DNA of 64,000 nucleotides from Acidobacteriota bacterium (GTDB lineage: Bacteria > Acidobacteriota > Terriglobia > Terriglobales > Acidobacteriaceae): positions 1-64,000 of the forward strand of contig QIAU01000143.1 in assembly GCA_003225055.1 (NCBI GenBank). The letters run 5' to 3'. Within the stretch, counting starts at the first letter, position 1. Each line of letters begins with the position of its first letter. Positions 28,351 through 31,136 of the stretch are shown piece by piece. The notes below the pieces were generated by a model. The model saw nothing but the letters and a program-made list of their open reading frames with translations, was not told the DNA's origin and did no database searches. Made by a program: the position numbers and the translations under genes.

Positions 28351-29319
28351 ATGAAAAAAATCCATCGGCTCATCTGGATACTGTTTTTCTTATTTGGTCT
28401 GGTCGTCCCGACAATCGCGCAACAAGCCGTGGTAAAAAACCGGGCTACCCTCCGTCAGGATGCTTCCAGCAAGAAGGCTCCCATAGCCCGATTGGATCCT
28501 GGCACCGACGTTGACCTTCTTGAGCCCGGCACAACGCGCGGCTATTACCACGTACGGACAAGCGACGGTACGGAAGGCTGGATCTATTCCCACAACCTCG
28601 AAATGGTCACTCCTGCGACGCCACCATCGACACAACCGGCGGGTGGTATGCCTCCTACTCCTCCGACAGGAGTAGCGGCTGCCTTTTCGCGCGACTGGGA
28701 AAAGCGTGCACCGAACCAGACAACATTCTCGGGTCCAGACGGTGAGTGCGGCCCGACCGGAGATGGAGGAGACACCTCGACTAACGGCCGCAAGAACCGC
28801 ACTGACGTCCCCGCCAGTTACCACGAGGTCACCTGGAAGGCCCTGCAGTCGTTGCCTTACCCTTCCCATGCACCCCGATTGCTGGACCAGTGGACTCCCC
28901 AACAGATCCAGGTTATTCAACCTTTCGAGGGAGTCCCCGTTTCCTTAGTAGGTTATCTCGTCAAAATTAAGGTTGAAGACTCCGGATCAGGGGAATCGAC
29001 CAATTGCCATTTCGTTAATCCGGAAGAGGTGGATTGGCACATGCCTCTCGCCGAGCATGCCGGAGACCTGGAAGCGACGGCCGTCGTTGTGGAGACAACT
29101 CCCCGCGTCAGGAAAGACCACCCGAAATGGACGCCAACGAATCTTTCAGCATGGGTCAGTTCGAATTCACCTGTCCGGGTCAGCGGTTGGACCCTTCTCG
29201 ATCCGGAGCATGGCGCGCAGGTTGGGAAGTACCGGTCCACGCTGTGGGAGATCCACCCGATCACAAGGATTGAGGTTTTCAAGGATGGACAGTGGGTAGA
29301 TGCAGACAGCTTGCCCTGA
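28351..29319 (+). CDS. Exported SH3b-domain protein
   Basis: A 322-residue protein with a signal peptide (IHRLIWILFFLFGLVVPTIA, cut before QQ). Residues about 25-90 form a bacterial SH3 domain: VVKNRATLRQDASSKKAPIA, DVDLLEPG and YYHVRTSDGTEGWIYSHNLE. A Pro/Thr-rich linker follows, then an unrecognised domain with YHEVTWKALQSLPYPSHAPR and WHMPLAEHAGDLEA. SH3b domains often bind cell-wall peptides. ATG at 28351 has a good AAAGGAGA site. The C-terminal part might bind DNA ends or act as a nuclease-like fold but no catalytic motif is clear. Confidence 0.82.
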   Translation: MKKIHRLIWILFFLFGLVVPTIAQQAVVKNRATLRQDASSKKAPIARLDPGTDVDLLEPGTTRGYYHVRTSDGTEGWIYSHNLEMVTPATPPSTQPAGGMPPTPPTGVAAAFSRDWEKRAPNQTTFSGPDGECGPTGDGGDTSTNGRKNRTDVPASYHEVTWKALQSLPYPSHAPRLLDQWTPQQIQVIQPFEGVPVSLVGYLVKIKVEDSGSGESTNCHFVNPEEVDWHMPLAEHAGDLEATAVVVETTPRVRKDHPKWTPTNLSAWVSSNSPVRVSGWTLLDPEHGAQVGKYRSTLWEIHPITRIEVFKDGQWVDADSLP

Positions 29320-29772
29320 CAGGATGCAAAAGCGTAATTCGTCGGACTTCAGACGAGGTGTATTGGCGGGCAAGATGAGGCTACGGGTGGAGCACTCGCG
29401 CCAGCTCCACCTGTACCTACCGAAAACTCGATCTCAGCAAAAAAAGGTGAAGTAAAGTAGCTGCGGAAAGCGCATCCTCGGTTGGCAGGTCCGTGATTGC
29501 TTCGCCTGCCGCGAAAACGGCACCGTGTCAGCTTGTCGGTGCAGCGGATCGCGCCGGCGTGCGTCGTAAGCACCTAATATTAAGGAGGGAGGGTCTCAGG
29601 CGGCCCGTCGTTCGTAGCGGTGATGCAGCCCGCCGACCTGGGCAGCGCCACGACTCTCCCCATTGGCTCCGGCTGGATCGATCGCGACTCCGGGGCGTCC
29701 CTGGCTAGGGCGAGATTTGGGCAGGTCCCAAGGAGAAAAGGCGCGTGTGCATACGCCCACCAATTTCGAAGG
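29320..29772. other. No gene recognised
   Basis: About 450 GC-rich bases with several short open frames on both strands but no motif that I can assign. May belong to an old insertion. Confidence 0.45.
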
Positions 29773-30683
29773 TCACGCCGGAACGTCGTGCTGGTTCAGG
29801 CTGATCCCGGACTCTTAGCGTAATTGTGAAGCCCTCTTCGAAAGGTCCTTCATCACCACTGGGCGCGGTACTCCCAGCAGGTACTCCTTTGGCAACCCCG
29901 CCACTTGGGGCGGGAATTCAAGTTGGGGATTGCCAACGTGCTGGATCACAACCGGTATCTCTGTTACTCCAATGCTGCGCAGTGCAACGCCCGATGAAAC
30001 CCGTTGTTCAGAACAATTCTCGGTCCGGCCTGCAGAACATTTACAGGCGCGCCACCGTAACCGATAAACGCAATCACTGCGGCAGCGGGCAGCCCACCGA
30101 AAACCGCGTGTTCCAAATCCTCATTCGTTAACTGCTTCATAAGCGCCCCTAAGACATCTGTGTTTCGCCAAAGCGCGAGATGGCCCCGATTCAGCACCTG
30201 GAGGTGGCTCCCAACACCCATGTGTTTAGCTCGCCAAATGCTGATATCCGTTACGTCCAGAAGCTCGTCCAAGCTTGGGCTCTTCGGATAGCGCTTTACT
30301 AGTTGACGGACGTAATCGAGATTAACCGTCCGTTGTGGCGCGACGAGTTTGTCGACCTCCACCAGCCCGAAACTGACCGGGAGAATTGAAAACGTCTTGC
30401 GGAACAAATTAATCGGACGAAAAAGCATCCAACTTCTGCTTGTGCTGGAGTGGGATATTGCTGACCCGAATACCATCGAGGATACCAGCTTCATTGCGGA
30501 GCAGATCTGCAACACGGGCCTGGACGCCTCGCCAAGCGGAGAATATATCCTGCAGACGTGCGATTTCGTCGTCGAGCGTCTGTGTGCGCACGTATTGCAG
30601 GACCTCAGCCTGGGTCGCAAATGCAAATAACTATTGCTGTTGGACAAAGTGAGTGGCCCACCTGGACAGGCGCTGAGCCATGA
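29773..30683 (-). pseudogene. Unknown conserved protein with nonsense codon, frameshifts and a 99-base internal inversion
   Basis: From ATG 30683: MAQRLSRWATHFVQQQ, TAG, then LFAFATQAEVLQYVRTQTLD, ARLQDIFSAWRGVQARVADL and QHKQKLDAFSSD. A frameshift near 30409 leads to LFRKTFSILPVSFGLVEVDK and YVRQLVKRYPKSPSLDELL. The next 99 bases (30156-30254) make sense only on the opposite strand: ICVSPKREMAPIQHLEVAPN and THVFSSPNADIRY. Then minus-strand homology resumes with LGALMKQLTNEDLEHAVFGG, AGPRIVLNNGFHR and, after another shift, VALRSIGVTEIPVVIQHVGN. The 3' end is uncertain; a final peptide LNQHDVPA ends at 29773. Family function is unknown to me. The GFHR/LRSIGV text recalls ParB-like nuclease folds only loosely. 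Confidence 0.7.
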
Positions 30684-31136
30684 GCAGTCTCCTTGTCCAG
30701 CACGATTCCTTCGCTTACGTCCTGATCTGCCACTTTCGTGCGCTATGGTGAAGTGCTGACGATTAGGATGGTGAAAGGAGCTCACCCCGATAATTGTTTG
30801 AGCCCGATCCCTGTACAAGACACCGGAAATGTCATCTAAGGCGCGGAGTTGTGCGTCGTCGTATTTTCTCTATACGTAAATCCGGACGAGACAGGAAATT
30901 TGCCCTGTCAAACTGCGGCACTCCGCAGACCGGCCACGATTACACGGAAAGCGAGCCGCACTAAATGTCTGCGCGTACAATCTTGCAGCGAAATCCACAG
31001 CTCCAACCCTTGAGAGATGCCAAGGCCAGCAGTGGGAAAGGCATTCTCTAATTGTGTTCGATCTCACGCCTAGCAAAAATACTTCGCGTGACTTGCAAAT
31101 GTGTAATAAGCTTTATATCAATTCGGGGGGAACGCA
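30684..31136. other. No gene recognised
   Basis: About 450 bases between the inverted pseudogene and the next exported protein, with only short frames. The last 60 bases are AT-rich and include a GGGGGGAA ribosome site for the following gene. Confidence 0.45.

Follow-up and report, generated by a model that had tools for sequence, protein, structure and literature searches.

A 99-base stretch that seems to run backwards inside a decaying gene raises two questions: whether it is really inverted relative to its ancestor and, if so, how so short an inversion could arise between ends that pair over only three bases. The locus lies in the window, by which we mean the whole 64,000-nucleotide stretch of DNA analysed here. 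Two features are needed at the outset:

29776 to 30657 (approximate), minus strand: pseudogene; its family is uncharacterised, and a ParB/sulfiredoxin-like core is predicted for it. It was placed by tblastn matches to the intact L013 protein, which fall in different frames, and by the flipped and unflipped frames.
30156 to 30254, assigned to neither strand: inverted segment of 99 bases whose ancestral coding sense is now plus, placed by tblastn of the L013 protein.

The pseudogene and its relatives

Besides the flip, the pseudogene carries one in-frame stop near 30631-30633 and frame breaks near 30410, 29988 and 29836, and tblastn pieces of the intact relative fall in three minus frames. Family labels from Pfam, NCBIfam and PHROGs gave nothing convincing for it, a sequence search of solved structures reached a best E of 0.33, and Rfam returned a single match on 29300-31130, far below the gathering score. 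Directly beside the pseudogene, 29402-29716 is part of a dispersed repeat, with 8 further matches in the same genome (on contigs C10, C90, C31, C267, C212, C44, C226 and C214) at 72-89% identity over 68-305 query bases.

The first searches for relatives gave distant homologues, and a first scan of genome contigs with the restored peptide found no relative. When the restored 128-aa peptide was used, the window's own genome was the sole match among 61 genomes of the genus, family and phylum; in the 396 genomes searched across the phylum, G242 matched in addition to the own genome, and among 15 genomes of G242's family, G242 was again the only match. A restored peptide with no database match, an outcome that by the original prediction would have told against the flip, was therefore not what the searches gave. 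A match of such a peptide to the genome it comes from is inevitable, which makes the search partly circular, and intact relatives were used as the query instead. A scan with a three-row alignment yielded 30 loci, and one of them, L013, the closest intact relative, shows 63% identity over the query. Its gene (L013 6887-7843) lies in a contig labelled Archaeoglobus sp. JdFR-37, which may point to gene movement between domains or to a mixed bin.

A search of 397 genomes of the order with the intact L013 protein gave matches at E 0.001 in 28, one of them the window's own genome. Loci were taken from 20 of the matches listed, comprising L043 (own) and 19 others (L044-L062). Six of these 19 matched by tblastn at E 0.01, with 25-27% identity and gaps at the joint, and the 13 that gave no tblastn match, being uninformative on the joint, were not counted. 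Searches of viral contigs and phages found no relative. The same-genus genome G001 had no match to 29300-31130, and therefore offers neither an empty nor an uninverted site.

The segment is inverted relative to its homologues

The L013 protein matched the window on the minus strand at 30657-30412, 30407-29970 and 29985-29776, and on the plus strand at 30153-30272 with 75% identity (E 3.6e-16, all by tblastn), so that the matches run minus, plus, minus, in register. After flipping, 28 of the 33 residues are identical to L013, whose 318-aa frame has LLDICVSPKRKMDPIQHLEIAPNTHVFSSPNSDIRF-LGAFVKQL unbroken. The segment is uninverted in all 35 aligned homologous frames, which represent 33 distinct loci (L004 duplicates L021, and L006 duplicates L019); homologues in the present orientation, a finding that would have told against the original prediction, numbered 0 of 35. 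Columns that are nearly invariant in the family include, inside the segment, C152, F174, S176, S178, D180, R182 and F183 (L013 numbering).

Flips were scored against a profile of 29 homologues, from which the window and L013 were both left out, together with the duplicates L004 and L006 and the fragments or near-duplicates L042, L022 and L027. The flip of 30156-30254 came top of the 102 in-frame 99-base flips of the gene piece, at 98.2 bits compared with 60.8 for the unflipped sequence. In a set of 1563 scored sequences, made up of 90- to 108-base flips, either complete or lacking 3 bases, and of 3-base deletions alone, the best was the 99-base flip without codon 30153-30155, the omission raising the score of the flipped piece from 98.2 to 104.2 bits, whereas a 3-base deletion without a flip reached at most 63.9. 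At the DNA level, a three-piece ungapped fit to L013 reached +122 when one piece, about 98-103 bases long, was inverted and +30 when none was, and the tied best inverted pieces start at 30152-30155 and end at 30252-30254.

Flipping 30156-30254 does restore one continuous frame, as the original prediction stated, although the unflipped minus strand is open as well, with an open reading frame of 284 aa, so the flip is not required to remove a stop. In the window's 25 open frames of at least 300 codons, 7744 of 12584 in-frame 99-base flips stay open (61.5%), and the openness of the flipped frame was dropped as a sign of selection. The case for the flip is therefore one of homology, since most in-frame flips stay open anyway.

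The segment is reverse-complemented relative to intact relatives while its flanks are collinear with them, and these comparisons confirm a real and well-resolved microinversion in a pseudogene, as had been claimed. They likewise establish that the ancestral state was uninverted, place the joints to within a few bases, and reveal a net gain of 3 bases. The inversion gives no sign of any function of its own.

The time of the flip was judged from the distribution of differences from L013. In the ancestral frame, differences inside the segment number 4, 2 and 20 at codon positions 1, 2 and 3 (33 sites each). Upstream they number 10, 7 and 25 of 36, and downstream 12, 4 and 36 of 50, 49 and 49, giving 22, 11 and 61 outside the segment when both flanks are combined. 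The concentration at third positions shows that the segment accumulated its differences as coding sequence and that the flip came late.

The three-base ends

Two codons mark the joints:

30255 to 30257, minus strand: near joint, with the original codon (GAC) that precedes the segment in relatives; it matches the D of LLDICVSP in L013.
30153 to 30155, minus strand: extra codon (GTC) at the far joint, probably made by the event; its column is empty in 35 of 35 homologues.

As read on the plus strand, GAC at 30153-30155 and GTC at 30255-30257 bound the 99 bases exactly where the original prediction put them. The three-base ends are thus present now, but that prediction took them for flanking homology, and homology older than the event is unlikely with one codon extra relative to every homologue. 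The extra GTC is the exact reverse complement of the near-joint GAC, and in the column before it 33 of the 35 homologues have F, one has Y and one has P; the window has Y. Outward from the segment, pairing between the two ends extends over 3 bases and fails at the fourth, and a repeat scan near the segment found no long inverted repeats and no flanking arm pair. Microhomology at the joints, read off the sequences, is nil at one switch and 1-2 bases at the other. Since the codon is extra in comparison with all 35 homologues, and since the best in-silico undoing of the event omits it, the GAC/GTC pair is probably a product of the event rather than older flanking homology. In the simplest history that the alignment suggests, about 99 bases would have been replaced by about 102 reverse-complement bases, made from the 99 themselves together with the 3 that precede them, with a net gain of 3, and the event would not have been a balanced inversion. 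Edge repeats of the type defined in the available text of PMC8755829 have at least 3 bases; 3 are present here now, one copy probably being new.

A local template switch as the favoured origin

We give about an even chance to a local replication template switch having made the segment. Template switching, which the original prediction had put forward, is thus kept as a leading mechanism, and the unknown inversion mechanism offered beside it is not needed. The event would have been one mutational accident in a gene already decaying or about to decay. In the polymerase path that we infer, the growing strand would halt after the GAC codon, and synthesis would resume on the complementary-sense strand at the segment's far end. 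Copying would then run backward across the segment and for 3 bases past its own halt, yielding GTC, before the strand returned to its original template just beyond the segment. In the notation of PMC7954356, as given in the accessible part of that paper, we derive the order 3-1-2-4 for the four points on the ancestor along the gene.

If 3 bases were over-copied, one joint should carry an additional codon exactly reverse-complementary to the other joint, as was found, and the locus can be split into three collinear fragments, of which the second derives from nearby sequence of the complementary sense, with the fits of +122 and +30 reported above. A single accident suffices for a template switch, and it is improbable that two breaks would fall about 100 bases apart. 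Against it stand the near absence of microhomology at the joints and the lack, near the ends, of the long inverted repeats that template-switch models usually invoke, judging from the available text of PMC8755829 and PMC8604942; moreover, a flipped fragment rejoined by end joining would give the same product.

End joining of this kind is the most serious rival, although we consider it the less probable origin. If both strands broke at two neighbouring points, with a 3-base stagger at one of them, a piece of about 100 bases would be freed, filled in and ligated back the other way round by Ku/LigD-type end joining. Filling in the 3 bases would leave a copy of GAC at each end, giving GAC...GTC. 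Fill-in ligation would account for joints that look blunt, with homology of 0-2 bases, and for the inverted duplication of 3 bases, and a Ku protein is encoded in the genome (PF02735, E 3.4e-49, above the curated cut-off). Nevertheless, two breaks within about 100 bases are required, and the accessible portion of PMC8755829 deems two breaks about 20 bases apart highly unlikely. Template switching is ranked ahead of end joining on plausibility and not on proof from sequence.

The edge repeats of some microinversions may be the footprint of the event, left by 3-base over-copying or fill-in as an inverted target duplication, rather than its cause, and the first switch may have been bridged by a third template in a two-step serial switch. 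We offer this proposal only tentatively. One candidate template lies nearby:

30308 to 30315, plus strand: GGACGTAA, possible bridging template, not significant; opposite-strand copy of TTAC-GTCC at 30251-30258.

In such a variant of the template switch, GGAC would fold back on GTCC 50 bases away, copy GTAA, and then pair with TTAC. If true, the bridge would supply microhomology for the switch and would also explain why the window has Y at a position that is F in 33 of 35 homologues. Apart from GGACGTAA, no local 8-base match extends across a novel joint. The 8-base bridge TTACGTCC was rejected as telling evidence, being within chance: 2.4-12.2% of 3000 random flips per setting equalled it.

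Microhomology-mediated break-induced replication from a break inside the segment is improbable as the origin. It is what PMC8755829, in its available text, proposes for microinversions with very short flanking repeats, but that proposal makes use of flanking inverted repeats, and the sole pair here looks event-made. An assembly or library artefact seems very unlikely. In its favour, the host genome is a 7.41-Mb draft in 301 contigs (the window lies on contig C20); yet both joints lie 99 bases apart inside a contig of 129,511 bases, searches of the own genome found no second copy of the gene available for mis-joining, and an inverted 3-base duplication would, in our judgement, be an odd product of an assembler. 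An active element inverted by a site-specific recombinase, as in phase variation, has nothing to recommend it beyond the inverted state itself and can practically be dismissed, since the flanking inverted repeat has just 3 bases, too short for a recombinase, the repeat scan gave no arm pair on either side of the segment, and the gene has other disabling lesions.

Comparison with known systems

The segment is a clean bacterial case of an already known kind of mutation, and its twist is the origin of the tiny flanking repeat. Quasipalindrome template switching in bacteria, reportedly a replication template switch and said to be covered in a 2017 review by Lovett, differs in needing an imperfect inverted repeat; here no such repeat spans the event, the pairing being limited to 3 bases. 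Our literature search, which left most subscription papers outside its reach, found no description of a comparable microinversion in bacteria.

The original prediction had called such a segment rare, but rarity is not established here: human-chimpanzee microinversions with 3-base flanking repeats are described in the accessible text of PMC8755829, where 8 of 59 are flanked by 3-base inverted repeats only, 6 of the 8 directly at the edges, although these are 17-33 bases long. They resemble the present case in being short, local and mostly precise inversions, but the segment here has 99 bases, and in the human-chimpanzee cases the repeats, as far as that text goes, are counted as pre-existing, whereas here the repeat looks event-made. 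In the four-point short-range template switch, as presented in the available part of PMC7954356, a local stretch is likewise replaced by a reverse-complement piece, and three collinear fragments give a full account of the event; that description concerns great apes and is mechanism-agnostic, whereas the present case is in a bacterial pseudogene. Inversion of inverted-repeat spacers in yeast is also a local inversion ascribed to template switching, but in the available text of PMC8604942 it occurs only on arms of more than 9 bases, with spacer changes of 2-5 bases, and no such arms are present here.

Short inversions that lack pre-existing repeats are difficult to demonstrate, since the ancestral form can rarely be consulted. 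In the present case, comparison with an intact relative and with the aligned family locates the joints to within a few bases and reveals the net gain of 3. A general question that can be tested is how often the event itself creates the tiny inverted repeats that flank microinversions. A flipped segment escapes ordinary gene finding, and in a protein alignment it resembles a divergent patch.

The gene family

Pfam gave no match at E 0.1 or better on 26 family members, and the NCBIfam SerK (serine kinase) model matched 8 of the 26 homologues weakly, with a best E of 0.00076. An AlphaFold2 model of the L013 protein had a pLDDT of 87.2. With this model Foldseek returned no match at E 0.001 or better, ParB-like entries topping the list, and VIA-align gave middling scores, with a best Z of 7.0 to 2hwj and 6.4 to sulfiredoxin. 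The predicted structure bears a middling resemblance to ParB-, sulfiredoxin- and SerK-like structures, and a ParB/sulfiredoxin/SerK fold is likely for the family, though not settled. Three members encoded on plasmids (L008, L009 and L010) lie near peptidase-domain ABC transporter genes, and on two of these plasmids an HlyD-type gene stands between the family member and the ABC transporter gene. HlyD-like frames were also recognised by eye in the stretches beside G242's two members. Together, the plasmid and G242 neighbours suggest a possible link between the family and peptide export.
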